Positions 12,809 to 52,981 of a DNA stretch of 64,000 nucleotides are shown one piece after another. Within the stretch, counting starts at the first letter, position 1; the number at the start of each line of letters is the position of its first letter. A model generated the notes under the pieces. That model had not been told where the DNA came from and searched no databases. It saw nothing but the letters and a program-made list of their open reading frames with translations. A program made the position numbers and the translations under genes. Source of the DNA: Microbacterium hydrocarbonoxydans (GTDB lineage: Bacteria > Actinomycetota > Actinomycetes > Actinomycetales > Microbacteriaceae). Location of the stretch: NCBI RefSeq assembly GCF_023715885.1, contig NZ_JAMBOY010000006.1, forward strand, positions 124,001 through 188,000, in the 5' to 3' direction.

Positions 12809-12843
12809 CGAAGGCCCGGATGCTCAGAGCATCCGGGCCTTCG
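12809..12843. terminator. Perfect 16-bp hairpin terminator after the DUF3040 gene
   Basis: CGAAGGCCCGGATGCT, loop CAG, then the exact complement. Placed 15 nt after the DUF3040 stop and before the mraZ promoter, so it insulates the dcw operon. There is no long U-tract, as is common in actinobacterial terminators. Confidence 0.85.
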
Positions 12844-14951: not shown

Positions 14952-16127
14952 TTGAGACAGCCACTCGCACGCCGTCGCGCCCGATATCTGCAGATCGGGG
15001 TGCCCGCCGCGGTGATCGGATCCCTCACCGGACCCCTCGCGGTCGTTCCGGCGCAGGCCGACACGACCGTCCCGATAGAACGGATGCAGGGTCCCGGCCG
15101 GATCGTCCCCGCGACCACGACGCCCGCCAGCTACGTGGTACAGCCCGGCGATACCGTCTCGTCGATCGCTCGACAGCACGGTCTCCGCACGGTCGACGTC
15201 CTCGCCTGGAACGGGCTCACCTGGCGATCGGTCATCTACCCCGGCCAGTCGCTGACCCTCAGCGGGACGACCGCCGCCCCTGCGGCTCCGGTGTCGGTCA
15301 CCACCGCGCCCGCGGGCGCCTCGCACGTCGTCGTCAGCGGCGACACGGTCTACGGCATCGCGCAGAAGTACGGCACCACGGTCGACGCCGTGCTCGCGGC
15401 GAACGGCCTCACGCACTCCTCGATCATCCACCCCGGCCAGACTCTCGCGGTCTCCGGCGCCCCCGCGCCCGCCGCCGCACCGCCCGCGACTCCCCCGCCT
15501 CCGGCCGCGACGCAGACCCATGTCGTGGCCGCGGGAGACACGCTGTTCGGCATCGCCCAGAAGTACGGCACGACCACGGCCGCGCTGTTCGCCCTCAACG
15601 GCCTGTCCACGGGGTCGATCATCTATCCCGGGCAGAGCATCGCCGTCGCCGGAGCCCCGGCGCCGGCACCGGCGGCAACTCCGGTGCCGGCGCAGGCCGC
15701 GTCCTCGCAGTCCGCTGCGGCGCTGGACGCCGAGCAGGTCGGAAACGCAGCCCTGATCATCCGCATCGGCAGAGAGCTCGGCGTCTCGGATCGCGCGATC
15801 GCGATCGGACTCGCGACCGCGATGGTCGAGTCGAGCATGCGCAACCTCTCCTGGGGTGACCGTGACTCGCTCGGCCTCTTCCAGCAGCGCCCGAGCACCG
15901 GATGGGGGTCTGCGGAGCAGATCCTCGACGCCGACCGCAGCACACGCGTGTTCTTCGGCGGCGCCGGCGACCCCAATGGTCAGTCAACTCGCGGCCTGCT
16001 CGACATCCCCGGCTGGGAGTCGATGCGCTTCACGGATGCCGCGCAGGCCGTGCAGATCTCCGCCTACCCCGAGCGCTACGGACTCTGGGAGACCCAGGCG
16101 TACCAGTGGCTCGCGCAGTACGGATGA
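14952..16127 (+). CDS. Secreted protein with three LysM repeats and a lytic-transglycosylase-like domain
   Basis: 391 aa from TTG 14952, preceded by AGGGGGAAG. N-terminal signal peptide (basic RRRAR, hydrophobic 13-32, cleavage probably after AQA about residue 36). LysM repeats at about 60-104, 124-169 and 189-236, each with a GDT core and YPGQ/HPGQ ending, joined by Ala/Pro linkers; LysM binds peptidoglycan. The C-terminal domain from about 259 has AMVESSMRNLSWGDRDSLGLFQQRP, resembling the actinobacterial lysozyme-like domain with a Glu in AMVES. Likely a wall-bound hydrolase. It sits between the Rv2175c-like gene and pknL. Confidence 0.85.
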   Translation: MRQPLARRRARYLQIGVPAAVIGSLTGPLAVVPAQADTTVPIERMQGPGRIVPATTTPASYVVQPGDTVSSIARQHGLRTVDVLAWNGLTWRSVIYPGQSLTLSGTTAAPAAPVSVTTAPAGASHVVVSGDTVYGIAQKYGTTVDAVLAANGLTHSSIIHPGQTLAVSGAPAPAAAPPATPPPPAATQTHVVAAGDTLFGIAQKYGTTTAALFALNGLSTGSIIYPGQSIAVAGAPAPAPAATPVPAQAASSQSAAALDAEQVGNAALIIRIGRELGVSDRAIAIGLATAMVESSMRNLSWGDRDSLGLFQQRPSTGWGSAEQILDADRSTRVFFGGAGDPNGQSTRGLLDIPGWESMRFTDAAQAVQISAYPERYGLWETQAYQWLAQYG

Positions 16128-16206: not shown

Positions 16207-18153
16207 GTGACGACCAATCAGCAGGCCGACCCCCTCATCGGGCGGCTTGTCGACGGTCGGTACCGGGTCCGCGCTCGGATCGCCCGCGGCGGCATGGCCA
16301 CCGTGTACGTCGCGACCGACCTGCGTCTCGAGCGTCGCATCGCCCTCAAGGTGATGCACGCGCACCTCAGCGATGACTCGTCGTTCCAGAGCCGCTTCAT
16401 CCAGGAGGCTCGGGCTGCCGCCCGTCTTGCCGACCCGCACGTCGTCAACGTCTTCGATCAGGGGCAGGACGGCGAGCTGGCCTACCTGGTCATGGAGTAC
16501 CTTCCGGGCATCACTCTGCGCGAGCTGCTCCGCGAGCAGAGGCGGCTGACGGTTCCGCAGACGATCACCATCATGGACGCCGTGCTCGCGGGACTGTCCG
16601 CCGCGCACCGCGCCGGCATCGTGCACCGCGACGTGAAGCCCGAGAACGTGCTCCTCGCGGAGGACGGCCGCATCAAGATCGGCGACTTCGGTCTCGCCCG
16701 CGCGACCACCGCCAACACGGCGACCGGCCAGCAGCTGCTCGGCACCATCGCGTACCTCGCGCCCGAGCTCGTCACCCGCGGCACGGCCGACGCCCGCAGC
16801 GACATCTATGCCCTCGGCATCATGCTGTACGAGATGCTCGTCGGCGAGCAGCCGTACAAGGGCGAGCAGCCCATGCAGATCGCGTTCCAGCACGCGACGG
16901 AGTCGGTCCCCCGACCGAGCGTCCGGAACCCGGCCGTACCCGAGCAGCTCGACGAGCTCGTGCTGTGGGCCACCGAGAAGTCGCCGGACGAGCGACCGGA
17001 CGACGCCCAGCAGATGCTCGAACGCTTGCGCGACATCGAACGCGACCTGGGTATCGCCCCCGCGGTCGCGGCGGCGACCGCGCCTCAGCGCTCGCAGGCG
17101 GATTCCGCTGAGCTCACCAAGATCATGCCGAGCACGATGGTGCTCTCCGACCCCGCGGCACCGACCCCGCAGGCGGTCGACAACGCGACGCTGCTGCGCC
17201 GGCGCTCGTCGCGCCGACGCGCACGTGGCGCGCTGCTCCTCACCCTCGTGCTGCTGCTCGCCACCGTCGCGGGCGGCGTGGGCTGGTGGTTCGGCTCCGG
17301 CCCCGGCTCTCTCGTCGCCGTGCCCGATGTCGCGGGACTCACCTATGACGAGGCGGCGTCGACTCTCACCGAGGAGGGCTTCGTCCCGGTCCGCGGTGAG
17401 GAGAATTCGATCGAGGTCGCGAGAGACCAGACCATCCGCACCGACCCCGAGGAGGGTCAGCGTCTCGACAAGGGCGCCGAGGTCACGGTGATCATCTCGA
17501 TCGGCCCGGCCAGTCATACCGCCGAAGCCCTCAACGGCAAGACCGAGCAGGAGGCGCGGGACTACCTCGCCGACATCAAGGTCAACGTCGCGGACCAGCC
17601 CCTCCTCCTCTTCTCCGACGCCGAAGCCGGGCGGGTCATCAACGCCTTCGTGACCCCGCGCGACGGCGGAGAGGTCTACGGCTGCGGCGACGGCTGCGAT
17701 CTGCTCGAAGACGACTCCGTCGAACTCTACGTCTCGGCCGGCCCGTTCCCCGACGTCAGCGGGATGTCGGTCGACCAGGCGACGACGACACTCACGGACA
17801 AGCAGCTGCAGGTCTCGCCTGAGATCGTCTACGCGTTCAGCGAGAAGCTACAGAAGGACCTCGTCATCGGAGTGTCCGACCGTGCGGAAGAGGGCAACTG
17901 GCGTCCCGGCGACACCGTGCAGCTCATCGTCTCGAAAGGCCCGGAATTGTTCCCGGTACCGGATGTCACCGACAAGACGCTGGTCGAGGCCAAGCGGATC
18001 ATCGAGGGCGCCGGTTTCACCGCGACCTATGCCGCCTGGGGTGACCTGCCCGGATTCGCCGATCTGGCGAAGGTCACGGCGCAGGATCCAGGGGCCGACA
18101 AGCAGCTCCCCCGCGGCGGCACGGTCAAGCTCTCCATCCAGCTCAGCGGCTGA
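16207..18153 (+). CDS. pknL: PASTA-domain serine/threonine protein kinase (PknL type)
   Basis: Membrane Hanks-type kinase sensing cell-wall fragments. 648 aa. The kinase domain (about 19-285) has the glycine loop IARGGMATVYVA, Lys48, HRDVKPEN with catalytic Asp142 and DFG with Asp160. A Ser/Thr-rich juxtamembrane region, a basic stretch (RRRSSRRRARGA) and one helix (about 340-362) lead to four PASTA units outside the cell (about 368 to the end; DVAGLTYDEAASTL, DVSGMSVDQATTTL, DVTDKTLVEAKRII mark three). The second unit is the most divergent and contains two Cys (CGDGC). Gene order with Rv2175c-like, idsA and aroG supports PknL; the PASTA-bearing form resembles corynebacterial PknL. Confidence 0.93.
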   Translation: MTTNQQADPLIGRLVDGRYRVRARIARGGMATVYVATDLRLERRIALKVMHAHLSDDSSFQSRFIQEARAAARLADPHVVNVFDQGQDGELAYLVMEYLPGITLRELLREQRRLTVPQTITIMDAVLAGLSAAHRAGIVHRDVKPENVLLAEDGRIKIGDFGLARATTANTATGQQLLGTIAYLAPELVTRGTADARSDIYALGIMLYEMLVGEQPYKGEQPMQIAFQHATESVPRPSVRNPAVPEQLDELVLWATEKSPDERPDDAQQMLERLRDIERDLGIAPAVAAATAPQRSQADSAELTKIMPSTMVLSDPAAPTPQAVDNATLLRRRSSRRRARGALLLTLVLLLATVAGGVGWWFGSGPGSLVAVPDVAGLTYDEAASTLTEEGFVPVRGEENSIEVARDQTIRTDPEEGQRLDKGAEVTVIISIGPASHTAEALNGKTEQEARDYLADIKVNVADQPLLLFSDAEAGRVINAFVTPRDGGEVYGCGDGCDLLEDDSVELYVSAGPFPDVSGMSVDQATTTLTDKQLQVSPEIVYAFSEKLQKDLVIGVSDRAEEGNWRPGDTVQLIVSKGPELFPVPDVTDKTLVEAKRIIEGAGFTATYAAWGDLPGFADLAKVTAQDPGADKQLPRGGTVKLSIQLSG

Positions 18154-18177
18154 ACGGCATCCATCGTCCACGACAGA

Positions 18178-18216
18178 CGACCAAGGCCCTCCCCGATCCG
18201 GGGAGGGCCTTGGTCG
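18178..18216. terminator. Bidirectional terminator between pknL and aroG
   Basis: 17-bp perfect stem CGACCAAGGCCCTCCCC with a 5-nt loop (GATCC), 24 nt after the pknL stop and 14 nt after the convergent aroG stop. Confidence 0.88.
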
Positions 18217-18230
18217 TGTGGATGCTGTCG

Positions 18231-19571
18231 TCAGCGCTTCTCAAGCTCCTCGGCCACGAGGAACGCCAGCTCGAGCGACTGCATGTGGTTGAGACGCGGG
18301 TCGCAGAGGCTCTCGTAGCGAGTGGCCAGCGCAGCCTCGTCGATCTGCTCGGAACCGCCGAGGCACTCGGTGACGTCGTCGCCCGTGAGCTCGACGTGGA
18401 TGCCGCCGGGGAACGTGCCCACTGCGCGGTGCGCCTCGAAGAAGCCGCGGACCTCGTCGACCACGTCGTCGAATCGACGCGTCTTGTAGCCGGTCGGGGT
18501 CGTGATGCCGTTGCCGTGCATGGGGTCGGTGACCCAGAGCGGCTGAGCCCCGGAGTCGCGAACGGCCTCGAGCAGCGGCGGCAGCGCGTCGCGGATCTTG
18601 CCCGCACCCATGCGCGTGATGAACGTCAGCCGGCCGGGCTCGCGGTTCGGGTCCAGCTTGTCGATGAGCGCGAGCGCCGTCTCGGGCGTGGTCGTGGGGC
18701 CGAGCTTCACACCGATGGGGTTGCGGATCTTCGAGAAGTAGTCGACGTGCGCCCCGTCGAGTTCACGCGTGCGCTCTCCGATCCAGAGGAAGTGAGCCGA
18801 CGTGTTGAACGGGGTGTCCGTGCGCGAGTCGATCCGGGTCATCGGACGCTCGTAGTCCATCAGCAGGCCCTCGTGGCCGGTGAAGAACTCGACGCGCTTG
18901 AGCTCGTCGAAGTCGGCGCCCGCGGCCTCCATGAACTTGATGGCACGGTCGATCTCGGCAGCCATGCGCTCGTAGCGCTGGTTGGCCGGGTTCTGTGCGA
19001 AGCCCTTGTTCCAGGAGTGCACCTCCCGCAGGTCGGCGAAGCCACCCTGCGTGAAAGCGCGGATGAGGTTCAGGGTCGATGCTGCCGTGTGGTAGCCCTG
19101 GAGCAGGCGGCCCGGGTCGGCCTGGCGCGATCCCTCGGTGAAGTCGTAGCCGTTGACGATGTCGCCTCGGTACGCGGGCAGAGTGACGTCACCGCGGGTC
19201 TCGGTGTCGCTGGAGCGGGGCTTGGCGAACTGCCCCGCCATGCGGCCCATCTTCACGATCGGCATCGAGGCGCCATACGTCAGCACGACCGCCATCTGCA
19301 GCACCGTCTTGATGCGGTTGCGGATCTGGTCGGCGGTGGCGCCGGCGAACGTCTCGGCGCAGTCCCCGCCCTGGAGCAGGAATGCCTGCCCTGACGCGGC
19401 GCGCGCGAGCCGATCGCGGAGGTTGTCCACCTCACCGGCGAACACCAGGGGCGGGAGCGCTGCGATCTGAGCGGAGACCTCGGCCACGCGCTCGGCGTCC
19501 GGCCACTGCGGCTGCTGCTTGATCGGGAGCGAACGCCACGCGTCGAGCGCGTCGATGTGGTGCTGGAGCAT
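18231..19571 (-). CDS. aroG: Class II 3-deoxy-7-phosphoheptulonate (DAHP) synthase
   Basis: First step of the shikimate pathway, condensing phosphoenolpyruvate with erythrose 4-phosphate. 446 aa from the ATG at 19571; the typical N-terminus of the plant-like class II enzyme follows (LDAWRSLPIKQQPQWPD). Family blocks: FLLQGGDCAETFAG, KMGRMAGQFAKPRS, YRGDIVNGYDF, GVKLGPTTTPE, WVTDPMHGNGI. A -10 (TAGGCT) lies 7 nt before the ATG. A GTG seven codons upstream is an unlikely alternative start. In mycobacteria this enzyme can bind a chorismate mutase; none is visible in the window. Confidence 0.95.
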   Translation of the reverse strand: MLQHHIDALDAWRSLPIKQQPQWPDAERVAEVSAQIAALPPLVFAGEVDNLRDRLARAASGQAFLLQGGDCAETFAGATADQIRNRIKTVLQMAVVLTYGASMPIVKMGRMAGQFAKPRSSDTETRGDVTLPAYRGDIVNGYDFTEGSRQADPGRLLQGYHTAASTLNLIRAFTQGGFADLREVHSWNKGFAQNPANQRYERMAAEIDRAIKFMEAAGADFDELKRVEFFTGHEGLLMDYERPMTRIDSRTDTPFNTSAHFLWIGERTRELDGAHVDYFSKIRNPIGVKLGPTTTPETALALIDKLDPNREPGRLTFITRMGAGKIRDALPPLLEAVRDSGAQPLWVTDPMHGNGITTPTGYKTRRFDDVVDEVRGFFEAHRAVGTFPGGIHVELTGDDVTECLGGSEQIDEAALATRYESLCDPRLNHMQSLELAFLVAEELEKR

Positions 19572-19578
19572 GGCTCCC

Positions 19579-19584
19579 AGCCTA
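19579..19584 (-). promoter_or_regulatory. -10 element of aroG (leaderless)
   Basis: TAGGCT on the minus strand, 7 nt before the chosen ATG, in the 38-nt gap after the acyltransferase gene. Confidence 0.6.
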
Positions 19585-19609
19585 CTGGGCACGAGGGAGC
19601 CCAGACGCC

Positions 19610-33328: not shown

Positions 33329-34444
33329 TCACAGACCGCGCATGGTGATCAGCCCCGCTGTCCATCCTCGGATCGGACGCGTGCCGAGCGCCGACATCAG
33401 GGCCTCGCGGGCGATGAGACGCGTGCCGGTGGCCGGAGCGCCCATCGACATGTAGAAGGCCGACCGGCGCTGGGCGCGCCGAGCCGACCGCCGGGCGTCC
33501 CGCGCGTAACCCTCGAGGTCGGGACGACGCCGGGAAGAGCGACCAACGATGTCGGCCAGGGCGACGGCATCCGACCAACCGAGGTTCATCCCCTGCCCTC
33601 CGATGGGGCTGATCTCGCGGGCCGCATCGCCCAGCAGTGCGATGCGTCCCTGTGCGAACCGCTCGGCGACGTGCTGCGAAGCCAGGAACCGCGCAGGCTG
33701 CGTCCCCGGGTCGATCGACAGCCGGATGCCGGTGCGCTGGGCGATGCGGGCTCGGAAGTCCGCTGCATCGATCGCCGTGGGGCGGTCTTGACGCAGCACC
33801 CATCGGCGGCGCCCTCCGGGCAGCGGGAACGACTCCACCAGTCCCTCCGGTTCGCAGTGCAGCACGGCCACGCGATCGGGTTCGGGGTCGTCGGCATCCA
33901 GCATCGCGTACGGCGCCGCCCCCGGCGTTCGCCGCCAGCCCGCTCCGAGCGCCCGCCGGAGACCGCTGTGCACTCCGTCGGCCACGACGGCCAACGCCGC
34001 CGAGACCTCGCGCGCGCCCTCGGCGCCCTCGACCTGCGCGGTCACCTCCCGACCGTCATCGCGCAGCGACCTCACCGTGCGTCCGGGTCGCAGCGCCTCA
34101 GGGGAAAGCTCTCGCAGTCGCGCGCGCAGCAGGGCGTCCGTGCGCGGCTGGGCGAGGACGTGAACAGGCCTGTCCGCGTCGAAGCGCACGGCCGCGAGCA
34201 GACGGCGTCGACTGCGCACCTCGCCGCCGTCGAGCTCCAGGGCCTCCGACCGCAGGGCTGCGCCGATTCCCGCCGCGTCGAGAGCGTCGAGGCCCGGCGG
34301 ATGGATGCCGATCGCCCTCGTCCTGGTGTCCGTCTCGCCTCGCCGCTCGAAGACCACGGCGTCCATGCCCTGCTGGAGGAGCAGGGTGGTGAAGAGGAGC
34401 CCGACCGGGCCGCCTCCGACGACCATCACCTCATGGGCGGGCAT
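33329..34444 (-). CDS. FAD-dependent class A monooxygenase of the type III PKS cassette
   Basis: 371 aa. FAD loop VVGGGPVGLLFTTLLLQQG (8-26); DG motif in ALAVVADGVHSGLRRALG; second FAD block RIALLGDAAREISPIGGQGMNLG. This is the PHBH/UbiH-like hydroxylase architecture that oxidises phenolic rings using NAD(P)H and O2. It overlaps the methyltransferase gene by 14 nt and follows a type III polyketide synthase, so its likely substrate is the polyketide-derived phenol. That product is inferred by analogy with the Streptomyces Srs pathway. Confidence 0.88.
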   Translation of the reverse strand: MPAHEVMVVGGGPVGLLFTTLLLQQGMDAVVFERRGETDTRTRAIGIHPPGLDALDAAGIGAALRSEALELDGGEVRSRRRLLAAVRFDADRPVHVLAQPRTDALLRARLRELSPEALRPGRTVRSLRDDGREVTAQVEGAEGAREVSAALAVVADGVHSGLRRALGAGWRRTPGAAPYAMLDADDPEPDRVAVLHCEPEGLVESFPLPGGRRRWVLRQDRPTAIDAADFRARIAQRTGIRLSIDPGTQPARFLASQHVAERFAQGRIALLGDAAREISPIGGQGMNLGWSDAVALADIVGRSSRRRPDLEGYARDARRSARRAQRRSAFYMSMGAPATGTRLIAREALMSALGTRPIRGWTAGLITMRGL

Positions 34445-35153
34445 CGACCGCCTCCCACCTCGCCTCGAGTCGGGCCGGGAGCCCGGATTCCACCCGCCAT
34501 CCCTCCGGGACGGCTGCAGCGAGCTCCCGGCGCGTGTACGAGCGACGGATGCTGATCAGGCCGTCCTCGCGGATGAAGGAGCCACGGAGGAGACTGCCTG
34601 CGAAGGGCCGGGTCGCCGCGGCGAACAGCGCGTAGGCGGTCGCACTGCGGGCGATGTCTCGGTGCACGGCGATTCCGCCCGGCGCGAGGAGACGCCGGGA
34701 GTCGTCGAGGATGCCCTGCAGCTCGCCGTCGTCGAGGTGATGCAGCACGTGGTTGGAGAAGATCACGTCGAACGTCGCTCGTTCGGCGACGAGATCCGAT
34801 GACAGGGCGTGCCGGTACTCGATGCCTGCGCCGTCGTCGTGTCGAGCTGCCCAGTCGATCGCCCGCGCATCCGCATCGAGTGCCGTGATCGAGCCGGTGA
34901 GTCCGTCGCGCCGCAGACGGGCCGCGAGCAGACGGCACGCATCGGCACCCCCGGCGCCGATGTCGAGGACGCGCACGGGTCCGCGCCGTGCGCGTGGACG
35001 GATGTCCCTCCGATAGAGCCGTCCGGGTCGGGAGACGAGTGCGTTCACCAGTCCGAACCGCTCGTAGGTGCGCTCCAGCATCCGGAGATCGGCGTCCGCC
35101 TCGTCCATGAGCTCGCGCACCCGGACGTCGCGGACGGAGAGATCGTGCCTCAT
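34431..35153 (-). CDS. Class I SAM-dependent methyltransferase of the type III PKS cassette
   Basis: 240 aa. SAM-binding loop RVLDIGAGGADACRLL (61-76), acidic ribose ligand in ITALDADARAIDWAA, and FSNHVLHHLDDGELQGIL, the UbiE/small-molecule type. It overlaps the polyketide synthase by 4 nt and the monooxygenase by 14 nt, so one polycistronic unit. A ring or O-methylation of the polyketide phenol is inferred. It is a soluble methyltransferase, unlike the membrane-bound SrsB of Streptomyces. Confidence 0.87.
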   Translation of the reverse strand: MRHDLSVRDVRVRELMDEADADLRMLERTYERFGLVNALVSRPGRLYRRDIRPRARRGPVRVLDIGAGGADACRLLAARLRRDGLTGSITALDADARAIDWAARHDDGAGIEYRHALSSDLVAERATFDVIFSNHVLHHLDDGELQGILDDSRRLLAPGGIAVHRDIARSATAYALFAAATRPFAGSLLRGSFIREDGLISIRRSYTRRELAAAVPEGWRVESGLPARLEARWEAVDARP

Positions 35154-36307
35154 GCGGCGTCAGGCGCGACCACGGTCATCAGCGCGCTCTCGGCGGTGAG
35201 TCCAGGGCCGAAGGCCATCGCCGCCACGCGCGACCCGTTCCGTGCGCCCCCGTCGAGGATGCGCTCGAGTACGAAGAGGATGGTCGCGCTCGACATGTTG
35301 CCCTTCTCACGCAGCGTCTCGCGTGCGGGCATCATCTGCTCGTCGCTGAGATGCAGCCGGTCCTGGATGCGGTCGAGGATGCTGCGACCGCCCGGGTGGA
35401 TGGCCCAGTGCTCGACGCGATCGCCGACGCGCCCCTCGTCGAACGCGTCGGCAAGGTCCTCGTCGCGGGCGTAGAGGGGGCGGATGGCGCCGATGATCGT
35501 CTCGCCGATGATCTGCGGCACGGCCGTCGACAGGATCATCTCGAAGCCGCTGTCGCCGATGGTCCACGCCATGTCCTTCTCGCCCTCTTCGGCGATCGCG
35601 GTGTGGAAGCCGTCGAGCACCACTCCGCGCTCCCCCGCCGGCAGCTCGCGGGCGGTCACGATGCCGGCGGCGGCGCCGTCGGCGAAGAGCGAGCACGCGA
35701 CGATGAGGTCGGGGTCCTCCGACGACCGCAGGTGCAGCGTGCACAGCTCGACGCTCACCACCAGCACGACCGCATCCGGGTCGGCCGCGCAGAACTGACT
35801 CGCCGCCTTCAGCGCGGGCATCGCGGCGTAGCATCCCATGAAGCCCAGATGGTAGCGCTGCACGCTGTCGCGCATCCCCAGCGCCCGGACGATCTCGTAT
35901 TCCGGCCCCGGGGCGTGGAAGCCCGTGCAGGAGACCGTGATCACGTGGGTCACGTCCGAGGCCTGCACGTCAGGGGACGCGTCGAGCGCACCCCGGGCCG
36001 CCGCGATGAAGAGCGGGGTCGCCTGCTCCACGTAGAACTCGTTGCGGACCTTGGTGCCCGGAGCGAGAAGTCTGCCGGATTCGCGATCGAAGAACGTCGG
36101 GTCATCGGTGTGGGTGGCGAGCGAGAGCTCGTCGATGACCGTGTGGCGCGTGTCGATGCCCGACCCGTTGAACGATGCTCCGATGAGACGCTGGCCGAGA
36201 CGGCCGACGTCGGGTTGCGACGCGAACACGTCGCGCACCTCGTTCTGCCGGAGGACGGTGTCGGGGACGATCGTGTGCAGCGATCGGAGTACAGCGGGAC
36301 GGCTCAT
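35150..36307 (-). CDS. Type III polyketide synthase
   Basis: Chalcone-synthase-like homodimeric enzyme condensing an acyl-CoA starter with malonyl-CoA. 385 aa from the ATG at 36307. Catalytic triad readable: Cys159 in HLGFMGCYAAM, His304 in WAIHPGGRSIL, Asn337 in KGNMSSAT. Typical N-terminal block AVLRSLHTIVPDTVLRQNEVRD. Starter and product are not evident; alkylresorcinol- or pyrone-type phenolic lipids are plausible given the tailoring genes. The start codon lies within the second arm of a perfect 16-bp hairpin, and I see no TAnnnT -10 in the 51 nt between the CYTH stop and this start. A TTG four codons upstream is also inside the hairpin. Confidence 0.93.
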   Translation of the reverse strand: MSRPAVLRSLHTIVPDTVLRQNEVRDVFASQPDVGRLGQRLIGASFNGSGIDTRHTVIDELSLATHTDDPTFFDRESGRLLAPGTKVRNEFYVEQATPLFIAAARGALDASPDVQASDVTHVITVSCTGFHAPGPEYEIVRALGMRDSVQRYHLGFMGCYAAMPALKAASQFCAADPDAVVLVVSVELCTLHLRSSEDPDLIVACSLFADGAAAGIVTARELPAGERGVVLDGFHTAIAEEGEKDMAWTIGDSGFEMILSTAVPQIIGETIIGAIRPLYARDEDLADAFDEGRVGDRVEHWAIHPGGRSILDRIQDRLHLSDEQMMPARETLREKGNMSSATILFVLERILDGGARNGSRVAAMAFGPGLTAESALMTVVAPDAA

Positions 36308-36334
36308 GCTGTCACTCAAGCATGAGCCGTCCCG
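36295..36334 (-). repeat. Perfect 16-bp inverted repeat enclosing the PKS start codon
   Basis: On the transcript: CGGGACGGCTCATGCT, loop TGAGTGAC, then the exact complement. The ATG of the polyketide synthase (36307-36305) is in the 3' arm. 24 nt after the CYTH stop; no U-tract follows. It may act as attenuator, terminator of the CYTH unit, translational lock or operator. Confidence 0.85.
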
Positions 36335-36358
36335 GCGCGGGAAGGGGGTTGCGCTCCC

Positions 36359-36991
36359 TCAGAACCCGAGTGCTCTGGCGAGCTTGGAGTCGGATGCCGC
36401 TGCGCGTGCGCCCGCGGCGGAGATCGCCGCTTCGGCTGCCGCGAAGAAGGCGGCGCGGGCGGCAGCCCCGGTCGGCGCCGCGGGCCCGAGTTCGAGCTCC
36501 CACTCGCGCCATTCGCGCTGCACGTCATGGCGCAGGTCCGTGGCCCTGACGTGGTCGTCGACGAACTCGGCGATCACACCGTGCGGCCCGGAGAGCAGGT
36601 AGGCGGTGCGACGGTTCTCGATACGTGCCAGCGGCGACAGCTCGTCGGTGGTCCAGCGCGCGAGCGCGTCGACGATCGCCTGCGGAACGGAATCGTCGTC
36701 TCCGAGCGGCCAGCCCATCTCGAGGCGCCCGTCGCCCTCACGAGGACCCTTGATGTGCCAGCCGGCGTCGGGGCCGCCGGTGCGGCGGCGGAGCGCCACG
36801 CCGGAGCGCGACAGCGCGACATCGGCGGTGTCCAGGTAGCGGGCGTCGAGCTCGCGCACCTCGCCCTCCGACACCGCGTCGACTCCGGGGAGGCCGTGCC
36901 AGTCCGGCAGCGGCGTTCCCGGATCGACGTCGTACTTGCGCTCGACCTCGACGACGCGCGACGGCTCGGCGGGGTCGTGCGCGTCAGTCAT
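36359..36991 (-). CDS. CYTH-domain (triphosphate tunnel) protein
   Basis: 210 aa. The N-terminal EVERK (ExExK, Glu15-Lys19) and alternating basic/acidic beta strands (ALRRRTGGPDAGWHIKGP, AEFVDDHVRA, REWREWELEL) define the CYTH/TTM tunnel that binds triphosphates or polyphosphate with metal. The C-terminal 60 aa are Ala-rich and helical. It may be an inorganic triphosphatase; adenylate cyclase is less likely. Overlaps the upstream 71-aa gene by 8 nt. Confidence 0.85.
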   Translation of the reverse strand: MTDAHDPAEPSRVVEVERKYDVDPGTPLPDWHGLPGVDAVSEGEVRELDARYLDTADVALSRSGVALRRRTGGPDAGWHIKGPREGDGRLEMGWPLGDDDSVPQAIVDALARWTTDELSPLARIENRRTAYLLSGPHGVIAEFVDDHVRATDLRHDVQREWREWELELGPAAPTGAAARAAFFAAAEAAISAAGARAAASDSKLARALGF

Positions 36992-37199
36992 CCGAAGGGT
37001 TGATTTCCTCGAGGGACTCGTCGTACCAGTAGTCCAGTTCGGTCGGGCCGTCGGAGTCGCCGGTGTTCTGCGCGTCTCCGCGACGGTTGTACACCACCTG
37101 CGTCTCGCTGTAGGGGACGATCAGCTTGTCGTCCGCGTCGTCGTCGAGAGGGATGATCTGCCCGTCGAGCGGGCCTCCGTGAAGTCGTGCGAGTGCCAT
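36984..37199 (-). CDS. Small conserved acidic protein (71 aa), function unknown
   Basis: Starts MALARLHGGPLDGQIIPLDDD and ends ELDYWYDESLEEINPSDD. The GGPLDGQ opening is seen in small actinobacterial hypothetical proteins. Leaderless start: TAGGGT lies 6 nt before the ATG. It overlaps the CYTH gene by 8 nt, so it heads that unit. No signal peptide or membrane segment. Confidence 0.75.
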   Translation of the reverse strand: MALARLHGGPLDGQIIPLDDDADDKLIVPYSETQVVYNRRGDAQNTGDSDGPTELDYWYDESLEEINPSDD

Positions 37200-37205
37200 G
37201 CCCTC

Positions 37206-37211
37206 ACCCTA
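37206..37211 (-). promoter_or_regulatory. -10 element of the 71-aa gene (leaderless)
   Basis: TAGGGT on the minus strand, 6 nt before the ATG. Probably the promoter for the 71-aa gene and CYTH, possibly reading on into the PKS cassette. Confidence 0.55.
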
Positions 37212-37234
37212 GCGCCGTCGCCTCGGTTGCGTTC

Positions 37235-37705
37235 TCAGCCCACGGCGAGACCGAGCACCGCTCCGGCGATCATCCACGGCCCGAAGGCGATGCGGGTGGC
37301 TCCGTCCGCTCGACGGAGGAGCATCAGTGCGCAGGCGAAGAGGGCCCCGAGCACGAAGGCGGCCGCCGCGCCGACGACGAGTTCCTGCCAGCCGTGCCAG
37401 CCGAGCACCAGGCCGATCGTGGCCGCGAGCTTCACGTCTCCCCCGCCCATGCCGTCGCGGCTGATCAGGCGCAGCAGTGCGTAGAAGCCGCCGAGGATCA
37501 GGAGCCCCGCCACGCCTCGGATCAGCGGGGCCGTGTCATGCGTGAGCGCCGCGTCGACGACGGCGAGGAGGAGTAGCACGCCGAGGGTCGGGAGCACGAT
37601 CCGATCGGGCAGTCGGTGGCTGCGGAGGTCGATCACGACGAGTCGGGCGGCGACGACGACGAGGCCCAGATGCACGAGGACGATGAGCACGGGACGCGGA
37701 TCCAT
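37235..37705 (-). CDS. Short A24 prepilin peptidase
   Basis: 156 aa, six hydrophobic helices. Aspartyl protease residues of the TadV/CpaA/PilD type: Asp26 in VIDLRSHRLPDRI and the GxGD motif in GMGGGDVKLAATIG. The N-terminal methylase domain of full-length PilD is absent, as in minimal CpaA-type enzymes. No pilin or tad genes occur in the window, so the substrate must be encoded elsewhere. Leaderless -10 (TAGCCT) 6 nt upstream. Confidence 0.88.
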   Translation of the reverse strand: MDPRPVLIVLVHLGLVVVAARLVVIDLRSHRLPDRIVLPTLGVLLLLAVVDAALTHDTAPLIRGVAGLLILGGFYALLRLISRDGMGGGDVKLAATIGLVLGWHGWQELVVGAAAAFVLGALFACALMLLRRADGATRIAFGPWMIAGAVLGLAVG

Positions 37706-37711
37706 CCGGGA

Positions 37712-37717
37712 AGGCTA
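37712..37717 (-). promoter_or_regulatory. -10 element of the prepilin peptidase gene (leaderless)
   Basis: TAGCCT on the minus strand, 6 nt before the ATG. Confidence 0.5.
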
Positions 37718-37768
37718 GGGAATGCCCGGATGCCGTGCGCCGCCGGGTGTGGATAACCCGCGGCCTGT

Positions 37769-38059
37769 TCAGAGATCGATGATGTCGAGGTCGACGAGCA
37801 CGACGTCACCCTCGGTGATGCCCTGCGCGTCGCGGATCGCCTTCTTGAGCGGGAGTACGAATGCAGCCCCGTCGAAGAAGATCGAGGTGCTCCAGAGGGA
37901 CGAGCCGATGCGCGCTCGCACTCGCAGGGATCCGAATCCCCGCTGCGGCGCGGGAAGCTCGCGGATCTCGAGCGAGATCTCCTCCGGCATGGTGGCGAAG
38001 AACCAGTCGTCGACGCGCTTCTCCCAGCGGGTGACAGAGCTCTCGAACTCGATCTGCAT
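37769..38059 (-). CDS. DUF1905-family protein
   Basis: 96 aa from the ATG at 38059; TACGCT 7 nt upstream supports this start over ATGs at 38089 and 38131. The sequence QIEFESSVTRWEKRVDDWFFATMPEE followed by GFGSLRVRARIGSSLWSTSIF and FVLPLKKAIRDAQGITEGDVV matches the small beta-rich DUF1905 fold (AbrB-related). No function is assigned. Divergent from the mutasome operon. Confidence 0.8.
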   Translation of the reverse strand: MQIEFESSVTRWEKRVDDWFFATMPEEISLEIRELPAPQRGFGSLRVRARIGSSLWSTSIFFDGAAFVLPLKKAIRDAQGITEGDVVLVDLDIIDL

Positions 38060-38066
38060 GGGCGAC

Positions 38067-38072
38067 AGCGTA
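38067..38072 (-). promoter_or_regulatory. -10 element of the DUF1905 gene (leaderless)
   Basis: TACGCT on the minus strand, 7 nt before the ATG at 38059. Confidence 0.45.
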
Positions 38073-38149
38073 TCCAGGATCTCCGACATGACCGTTCGCG
38101 AAGGGATGTCGGAGGTTCGAACTATCGTCATCTGATCCAGTTGATTTAT

Positions 38150-38165
38150 TCGTACATAGCTTCGA
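38150..38165 (+). promoter_or_regulatory. LexA-box-like operator of imuA-imuB-dnaE2
   Basis: TCGTACATAGCTTCGA matches the actinobacterial SOS box TCGAAC-N4-GTTCGA at 10 of 12 fixed positions and ends 10 nt before the imuA start. An AT-rich core promoter (TTGATTTATTCGTACATAG) overlaps it, as expected for repression. Confidence 0.65.
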
Positions 38166-38175
38166 GGATGGATGC

Positions 38176-38961
38176 ATGGGGTTCGATGCGGTGTCGACGA
38201 TCTCCCCGGCGGGTGATTCCCGTGCCGGGGAGGTGCTCCGGCTGCGCCGGGAGATCAGCCGCATGCAGCGCCGCCGCAGCGATCTCCCCCTGCTCCCGAT
38301 CGACGAGGCACTCGCCCCGCTGCTCCCCGATCAGGGTCTCCAGGCCGGCGCCGCGTACACGGTGTCCCCGTCCCCCAGCCTCGTGCTCGCTCTGCTCAGC
38401 GCTTCCTCCCGACGCGGTCTCTGGTGCGCCGTGGTCGGCATGCCGACGCTGGGCGTCGAGGCGGCCTCGGCGTTCGGGATCGAGCTTCCCCGGCTGATCC
38501 TCGTCCCCGATCCCGGAGACCGCTGGCTCGCCGCCGCCTCCGCTCTCGCCGAGGTCGTGCCCCTCATCGCCGTGCAGCCGGGAGGACGGGTGCGCGATGC
38601 CGATGCCTCCCGCCTGAGCGCCCGACTGCGCGACCGCGGCACCACACTGCTGGTCACCGAGTCCGAGCACTACGGGGCATGGCCGCAGAGCGAGGGCGCC
38701 ATCCGCCTGCACGACCAGCAGTGGGAGGGCATCGGCGAGGGCTGGGGACTGATCGAGGGATCGACGGCGACCGTGACCGCACGCACCAGGCACACCCCGA
38801 CGGGTGCGAGCGTGCGGGTGCGGCTCCCGGGAAGCCACGGTGCCGTCGAGGCGATCGCGGAACAGGCTGCCGCGGAGACGATCACCGAGCTGACCGCGCT
38901 GCCGGCCCTGCGCGAGGGAGACGCGAGCCCACCCGAGTACCCGCTGGCGGTGGCCGGATGA
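38176..38961 (+). CDS. imuA: ImuA-like mutasome accessory protein
   Basis: 261 aa, distant RecA-fold protein encoded before imuB. The N-terminal helix EVLRLRREISRMQRR is followed by a degenerate ATPase core (GAAYTVSPSPSLVLALLSASSRRGLWCAVVGMPTLG) lacking a Walker A GxxxxGK. Mycobacterial ImuA' binds ImuB and RecA to promote DnaE2 mutagenesis. The stop overlaps imuB as ATGA. Identity rests strongly on context. Confidence 0.8.
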   Translation: MGFDAVSTISPAGDSRAGEVLRLRREISRMQRRRSDLPLLPIDEALAPLLPDQGLQAGAAYTVSPSPSLVLALLSASSRRGLWCAVVGMPTLGVEAASAFGIELPRLILVPDPGDRWLAAASALAEVVPLIAVQPGGRVRDADASRLSARLRDRGTTLLVTESEHYGAWPQSEGAIRLHDQQWEGIGEGWGLIEGSTATVTARTRHTPTGASVRVRLPGSHGAVEAIAEQAAAETITELTALPALREGDASPPEYPLAVAG

Positions 38962-51414: not shown

Positions 51415-51449
51415 CGACGGGCCGTCCGCACGAAGCGGACGGCCCGTCG
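51415..51449. terminator. Terminator of the der operon
   Basis: 15-bp perfect stem CGACGGGCCGTCCGC with loop ACGAA, 11 nt after the der stop. The rest of the 106-nt gap to the Nudix gene has no other feature. Confidence 0.88.
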
Positions 51450-51460
51450 AGCACCGCGGT

Positions 51461-52981
51461 CTAGCGCTGACGCTTCTCGCGGACGCGCATGTTGACGACG
51501 ATCGGCGTTCCCTCGAACTCGTAGAGCTCACGCAGGCGACGCTGGATGAATCGGCGGTACCCCGGATCGAGGAACCCCGTCGTGAACAGCACGAACGTCG
51601 GCGGACGTGTCGACGCCTGCGTGCCGAACAGGATGCGCGGCTGCTTTCCGCCGCGCAGCGGGTGCGGGTGCTCGGCCACGAGCTCGGCGAGGAAGGCGTT
51701 GAACTTGCCCGTGGGGATGCGGCGGTCCCAGTTCTCCAGCGCGGTCTCGAGCGCCGGTACGAGCTTGTCGAGGTGGCGGCCGGTCTTCGCCGAGATGTTC
51801 ACGCGCGGGGCCCAAGCGACGTGAGCCAGGTCCTGCTCGATCTCCCGCTCCAGGTACCGACGGCGGTCGGCGTTCTCGAGATCCAGGTCGTTCAGGCGGT
51901 CCCACTTGTTGAACGCGAGCACGAGGGCACGGCCTGACTCGAGCACGAGATCGATGATGCGCACGTCCTGCTCGCTGATCGTCTCCGAGACGTCGAGCAC
52001 GACGACGGCGACCTCGGCCTTCTCGAGCGCGGCGGAGGTCCGCAGCGACGCGTAGAAGTCGGCACCCTGCGCCATGTGCACCCTGCGACGGATGCCGGCC
52101 GTGTCGACGAGCGTCCACAGCTTGCCGCCGAGCTCCACGATCTCGTCGACCGGGTCGCGGGTGGTGCCGGCGAGGTCGTTCACGACCACGCGCTCCTCCC
52201 CCGCCGCCTTGTTCAGCAGCGAGGACTTGCCCACGTTCGGGCGCCCGAGGATGGCGACCCGGCGCGGCCCGCCGATCTCGGCCTTCGCGACGGCCGAGAC
52301 GTCCGGCAGCTTCTTCAGCACGGCGTCCAGCAGATCGGCGACGCCGCGACCGTGGATCGCGGAGACGGGATGCGGTTCGCCGAGACCGAGGTTCCACAGC
52401 GCGGCGGCCTCGGGCTCCTGGCGGCTGTCGTCGATCTTGTTGGCGACGAGGAACACCGGCTTGCCGCTCTTGCGCAGCAGCTTCACGACGTGCTCGTCGG
52501 TGGAGGTGGCGCCGACCATCGCGTCGACGACGAAGAGGACGACGTCCGACAGGTCGATCGCGACCTCGGCCTGCGCAGCCACGGATCGATCGATGCCCTT
52601 CGCATCGGGCTCCCAGCCGCCGGTGTCGACGAGCGTGAAGCGACGATCGTTCCACTCCGCCTTGTACGTGACGCGGTCGCGCGTGACACCGGGCGTGTCC
52701 TCCACGACGGCCTCGCGACGGCCGAGGATGCGATTCACGAGCGCGGACTTGCCGACGTTCGGCCTGCCGACGATCGCCACCACGGGCAGTGCCGGCAGGA
52801 ACTGGATACCGTCCTCGCCCAGCGTCACGCCGGCGAGAAGCGCGGCATCCTCGTCGTCGAGCTCGTAGTCGGCGAGGCCGGCGCGCAGTGTCTCAGCGCG
52901 CTGCTCGGCCAGCTCCTCGTCGAGTGCGTCCATCTTCTCGGCGAGCTGGTCGGGGCCGCCCTCGTATTCGTCGTCAGCCAC
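51461..52981 (-). CDS. der: Ribosome-assembly GTPase Der (EngA)
   Basis: Essential tandem GTPase for 50S subunit maturation. 506 aa with an acidic N-terminal extension of about 65 aa. First G domain: GRPNVGKS (72-79), DTPG, NKID; second: [38 protein letters not shown]. The C-terminal KH-like domain is [18 protein letters not shown]. Overlaps cmk by 8 nt. Confidence 0.96.

Follow-up and report, generated by a model that had tools for sequence, protein, structure and literature searches.

The most durable finding at this junction, judged by comparison among relatives, is a predicted promoter of two conserved boxes at the start codon of a type III polyketide synthase (PKS) gene, on which a 16-bp perfect hairpin is a lineage-specific overlay. 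We consider it likely that the junction acts as a leaderless promoter of the PKS operon, with the hairpin laid over it and the stem lengthened by mutation. This moves attention from a hairpin bound to one lineage to a two-box promoter common to the Microbacterium species with the present PKS type, and it yields a predicted start of operon transcription that can be put to the test, as well as a candidate activator site. The junction may also be a natural case in which covariation between two arms could be mistaken for RNA function, though the likely mRNA lacks one of the arms.

The window analyzed here, the whole 64-kb stretch of DNA, encodes a PKS, a methyltransferase and an FAD-dependent monooxygenase that appear to form a three-gene type III PKS operon (Table 1). 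The PKS is 96% identical to that of Microbacterium sp. SZ1, in which the stem has 11 perfect pairs, and its relatives with solved structures include Pks18 (1ted). The srsABC genes of Streptomyces griseus are a bacterial type III PKS locus with a methyltransferase and an FAD hydroxylase. The likeness to that locus is one of gene order only: a PKS, then a methyltransferase, then an FAD monooxygenase, the genes overlapping. A phenolic lipid operon of the srsABC type would be expected to yield an alkylresorcinol or a quinone. Of 295 genomes of the genus Microbacterium, 240 have a PKS match at E <= 1e-30, and a survey of 70 Microbacterium genomes found a type III PKS in 79% of them (PMC7438953).

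Table 1. Positions of genes and sequence features at the PKS junction, numbered within the window.
Feature	Position	Strand	Remarks
FAD-dependent monooxygenase	33329..34444	-	start overlaps the end of the methyltransferase gene; presumed same operon
Methyltransferase	34431..35153	-	overlaps the PKS stop with its start; presumed to be in the PKS operon
Type III polyketide synthase, 385 aa	35150..36307	-	ATG at 36307-36305, the predicted mRNA 5′ end; Pfam PF00195/PF02797
Perfect inverted repeat	36295..36334	-	5′ arm 36334-36319, loop 36318-36311, 3′ arm 36310-36295
TGCTTGAGT, predicted extended -10 box	36314..36322	-	hexamer TTGAGT at 36319-36314, 6 nt before the ATG
CGCAACCCCCTTCC box	36340..36353	-	CAACCC begins 32 nt upstream of TTGAGT; candidate site for an activator, extending into a weak -35 region
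CYTH-domain protein	36359..36991	-	upstream of the PKS on the same strand; possible source of read-through RNA

A predicted promoter before the start codon

From the 240 PKS-matching genomes we took the 90 junctions best by rank and 20 more distant ones. These 90 (30 + 60 loci) were not chosen by pattern. A search of 366 genomes for the two-box pattern matched in 69 of them, from which 19 new rows were added; these rows were chosen for the boxes themselves and bring the total to 109 junctions, 100 of them with the hexamer. The rows are interrelated and counts among them are not independent. A further 46 more distant PKS starts comprise 19 from a deeper Microbacterium PKS group and 27 from other genera.

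Counting TTGAGT (75 junctions) together with forms that have one mismatch (6), 81 of the 90 junctions carry the hexamer 6-7 nt ahead of the ATG, against 0.63 expected from shuffles; the spacing is 6 nt in 67 of these and 7 nt in 14. All 81 have TG one base ahead of the hexamer, and in 79 the tail of the CYTH gene lies upstream of the PKS, the gap between CYTH stop and PKS ATG being 51 nt in the window. With the 19 pattern-chosen rows included, the hexamer is present in 100 of 109 junctions and the upstream box in 92 of 100. Across those 100 rows, 19 of them chosen for the box, the TG and hexamer columns carry 1.84-2.0 bits and 98-100 rows agree at each column of TTGAGT, while the middle base of TGn varies (C in 84, G in 8, A in 7).

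A box with the consensus CGCAASCCC(C)TTYC lies about 31 nt before TTGAGT. Of the 81 junctions, 73 have the form CA[AC][ACG]CC at 30-32 nt upstream of the hexamer, and the CA-CCC(C)TT columns are strongly conserved (100 rows, including the 19 pattern-chosen ones). Most of the hairpin's 5′ arm falls in the spacer that separates the two boxes, and this spacer has just 0.10-0.54 bits in columns -19 to -6. In the deeper Microbacterium group, 12 of the 19 orthologues have CAAS at 31-32 nt upstream of the hexamer, compared with 0.88 expected when distances of 29-34 nt were searched. The center of the upstream box falls near -42 of the predicted transcription start, and the box is probably an activator binding site. 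A wider dyad made of CGCAASCCC and GTGCTTGAG was considered and is not supported; the base after TG varies.

In Actinobacteria and other high-GC bacteria, a TANNNT motif some 12 nt upstream of the start is found at leaderless genes (PMC3160421), and in M. tuberculosis the -10 motif is TANNNT, with a TGN ahead of it going with higher promoter activity (PMC3898074). The present junctions resemble leaderless actinobacterial genes as described in these two papers in that a -10-like hexamer stands at near-constant spacing, 5-7 nt before the start across relatives and 6-7 nt in those with TTGAGT, a clear Shine-Dalgarno sequence is lacking, and TANNNT occupies the same place in many distant orthologues. 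They differ from the genes described there in the hexamer itself (TTGAGT with TGn before it), in the second conserved box about 31 nt upstream and, in the present lineage, in the 16-bp palindrome over the box. The first-pass annotation had noted that no TAnnnT lies between the CYTH stop and the PKS start. This is literally true, but TGCTTGAGT stands at the place expected for a leaderless -10 box. The second base of its hexamer is T where TANNNT has A. A scan of 35000-38400 for plain sigma-70 promoters found nothing.

Nine of the 90 junctions are without TTGAGT. In five of them TACNNT stands 6-7 nt ahead of the ATG, at 31-32 nt past the upstream box. TANNNT is found 5-7 nt before the ATG in 21 of the 46 distant starts, where shuffles give 0.84; these are 14 of the 19 in the deeper Microbacterium PKS group and 7 of the 27 from other genera. 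The strict motif is absent at this distance from the other 25, which include every Arthrobacter and Cryobacterium locus scored.

Six Arthrobacter PKS loci (L189, L200, L205, L208; L201, L212) have a common CTCTAGTAAT or CTCTAAGAAT stretch immediately before the start, which looks like a different promoter-like form at the same place. Another locus (L209), from a contig titled Vibrio cholerae strain 35D, has a PKS start and upstream region very like those of L189 and L208; this record is perhaps contaminated or mislabelled.

Two other roles for TTGAGT were rejected. Its TTG, at 36319, is not a start codon, and the box is not coding, since a spacing of 7 nt puts the TTG out of frame in 14 junctions. 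The hexamer is not a Shine-Dalgarno sequence either: every one of the 81 junctions retains the preceding TG, and the GAG core is gone in four relatives. We saw no strong Shine-Dalgarno sequence before the PKS ATG.

From these comparisons we predict that RNA polymerase recognizes TGCTTGAGT as an extended -10 box, helped by the CGCAASCCC(C)TTYC box, and that transcription begins with the first base of the PKS start codon or right next to it. The message would then be leaderless and would be translated as such. Among the papers listed on leaderless promoters in Microbacterium, titles and the beginnings of abstracts mention nothing on this PKS gene, and among the matches listed for srsA, phenolic lipid and type III polyketide synthase promoters no title concerns the PKS promoter.

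The conservation of TTGAGT exceeds what an actinobacterial -10 element usually needs, and possible reasons are recognition by an alternative sigma factor and overlap with an operator. The related proposal that the conserved TGnTTGAGTGAC and CGCAASCCC boxes serve an alternative sigma factor or a regulator in place of the primary sigma factor, with the hairpin incidental, overlaps with the leaderless promoter explanation; we regard it as unlikely, though it survives better than the other alternatives. In its favor, nearly all hexamer positions are conserved, beyond the requirement for TANNNT, and exact patterns are rare in the source genome, where GCTTGAGTGA occurs once and GCAANCCC-N24-28-TTGAGT occurs once. 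No regulon of boxes was found there with these exact patterns. Against it, plain TANNNT holds the homologous place in the 21 distant orthologues above, and the boxes, 31 nt apart, are too far from each other to be one -35/-10 pair.

The hairpin in the window

On the minus strand the 5′ arm reads CGGGACGGCTCATGCT, the loop TGAGTGAC and the 3′ arm AGCATGAGCCGTCCCG. The two perfectly complementary 16-nt arms around an 8-nt loop, and the PKS ATG inside the 3′ arm, are as the first-pass annotation had described them. Its view that the AUG would be paired in RNA read from upstream also holds: all of the AUG is paired in the fold of 90 nt around the ATG on the PKS strand (-42.4 kcal/mol, z -5.1). The plus strand of 36270-36360 folds as RNA at -51.4 kcal/mol, compared with -34.9 +/- 3.3 for shuffles (z -5.0).

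The palindrome is beyond chance, as had been proposed. In 640 kb of simulated sequence with the same dinucleotide make-up there were four perfect stems of at least 12 bp and none above 14. The window itself has five perfect stems of at least 13 bp, including the one at the PKS start; by a mechanical listing of open frames, two of the other four are at the ends of long open frames and two are inside open frames. Long perfect hairpins are not rare in this DNA, and the position over a start codon is the unusual part.

The two hairpins at frame ends lie at 18177-18217, between the convergent frames 16207-18153 (plus strand) and 18231-19592 (minus strand), and at 51415-51449, directly past the end of frame 51461-52981 (minus strand). 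They are perfect hairpins of 19 and 15 bp with loops of 3-5 nt and no T-run, and they resemble terminators without a U-tract. The long perfect inverted repeats at 12809-12843 and 15660-15693 (16 and 13 bp) are within an open reading frame.

Membership of a repeat family was rejected: a comparison of the 221-bp junction with the source genome (E <= 0.001) gave no match other than the junction itself and its reverse complement. Rfam gave two unrelated matches below the gathering score, neither of them at the hairpin.

Five of the six bases of TTGAGT sit in the loop. Under the leaderless promoter explanation the loop would contain most of the -10 hexamer, the 5′ arm would contain the promoter spacer and the 3′ arm the first codons. 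Transcription is thus predicted to start inside the hairpin, and the main mRNA would have the 3′ arm only; lacking the 5′ arm, it could not form the hairpin. The structure could then form just in read-through RNA from the CYTH gene, or in DNA, and it would have at most a secondary effect on the read-through RNA.

Possible functions of the hairpin and the evidence from relatives

One function compatible with the promoter half of this explanation is a block on read-through. In CYTH-derived RNA the hairpin would halt elongation or hide the AUG, only the leaderless mRNA from the inner promoter would be translated, and the hairpin would combine a terminator or insulator with a promoter. The hairpin is very stable, begins 24 nt past the CYTH stop and pairs the AUG in read-through RNA; the 15- and 19-bp hairpins without T-runs at open-frame ends in the window could be seen as a parallel, and in some clades the arms are still complementary with changed letters. 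Within the clade of the source genome, where the perfect stem has 16 bp, G292 has one of 11 bp, and its RNA can form 16 pairs with one G-U (fold z -4.7). In G180, also of this clade, a perfect stem over the ATG is lacking, and the RNA still folds at z -3.2 with G-U pairs.

The wider sample argues against this function. With loops of at most 12 nt allowed, a perfect stem of at least 8 bp is present in just 6 of 81 junctions anywhere from CYTH to the first codons of the PKS, a fold z of -2 or lower in 7, and the AUG of the read-through RNA, strongly paired in 29, is mostly unpaired in 33. G287, from the same clade as the source genome, also has no perfect stem over the ATG, and the hairpin has no T-run. 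We consider the read-through block improbable. The plainer suggestion that the hairpin is the terminator of the CYTH unit fares poorly as well: a terminator scan of 35000-38400 found no G+C-rich stem with a T-run.

A terminator and promoter could also be one composite element, with the -10 box in the loop. Read-through RNA would be shut off or untranslatable, RNA started inside the hairpin would be free, and the arms would be re-made as the first codons change. The clade-specific letters of the arms track the first codons (GGCTC/GAGCC, GGCGC/GCGCC, GGTGC/GCACC, GGGTC/GACCC). We give this composite a slightly lower standing again, as a doubtful reading.

The same letters bear on the earlier suggestion of a dimeric repressor site, in which the inverted repeat would be an operator over the promoter. 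The dyad is centered on the -10 box and shorter forms are found in several clades. A conserved dimeric operator is nonetheless very unlikely because the arm letters differ between stem-bearing clades and are not conserved between species; the letters that are conserved are those of the promoter boxes. There is no second copy of the junction in the source genome, and most relatives have no dyad.

Least probable of all is a start-codon switch or attenuator, in which the PKS message carries the hairpin and a regulator or ribosome opens it. The perfect stem with the ATG inside and the lack of a strong Shine-Dalgarno sequence are what such a switch might show. The comparative promoter evidence sets the mRNA start at the ATG, Rfam had no match here, and the structure is not conserved in orthologous leaders, as a switch or riboswitch should be. 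The first-pass annotation had named conservation of the arms in relatives as the check: most junctions (56 of 81; 69 of 100 with the pattern-chosen rows) have no perfect stem over the ATG, but a few clades do pair with changed letters. A perfect stem of at least 9 bp over the ATG is found in 6 of 81 (8 of 100 with those rows). The other check it had named, a transcription start inside the hairpin that leaves the 5′ arm out of the mRNA, agrees with the start predicted from the comparison.

Pairing of the arms and origin of the palindrome

Rows with at least three pairs outside the start codon number 17 of 99, compared with a mean of 5.8 after random re-pairing of arms, and none of 2000 shuffles reaches this number; the shuffle ignores relatedness. 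With the register slid by 1-4 columns there are 137-220 pairs, compared with 238 of 594 at the true register, a number that 3 of 1000 arm shuffles reach (mean 215). The true register has 17 pair types and the slid ones 9-18. Covariation of the arms overall is weak.

When coding segments were swapped between rows, stems of at least 8 bp were expected in a mean of 3.2 rows and are present in 10 of 100; none of 500 swaps reaches this. Among cluster representatives, which remove relatedness in part, the count is 6 of 56 compared with 1.9, and again none of 500 swaps reaches it. On a tree of 68 rows, absence of a stem of at least 7 bp, scored as a label, has to change at least 6 times, with the stem-bearing rows in a few clades; two of the rows (L137 and L016_G172) are scored too low, their start offset having come from a partial match. 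The excess of arm pairing is real but comes from few independent events.

Promoter and ATG together already give a short palindrome (TG...CA, sometimes CATGCT...AGCATG). It may have grown longer in some few lineages, and in the source genome most; the simplest route would be a template switch that copied the coding arm into the free spacer. Perfect stems and compensatory pairs can both arise when replication switches template between short inverted repeats (PMC8794818). We prefer a mutational origin because template switching can make perfect stems and the promoter carries the TG...CA seed. A by-product explanation has to ascribe the excess of arm pairing to template switching and shared ancestry, and these are inseparable here from weak selection. 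The strong fold of G180 with its broken perfect stem is also expected under selection on an RNA hairpin.

The junction differs from the template-switch (quasipalindrome) mutations as described in PMC8794818 in that its loop is not inverted, and the switch event here is a proposed one. It resembles them in that a short built-in palindrome is longer, with other letters, in separate clades.
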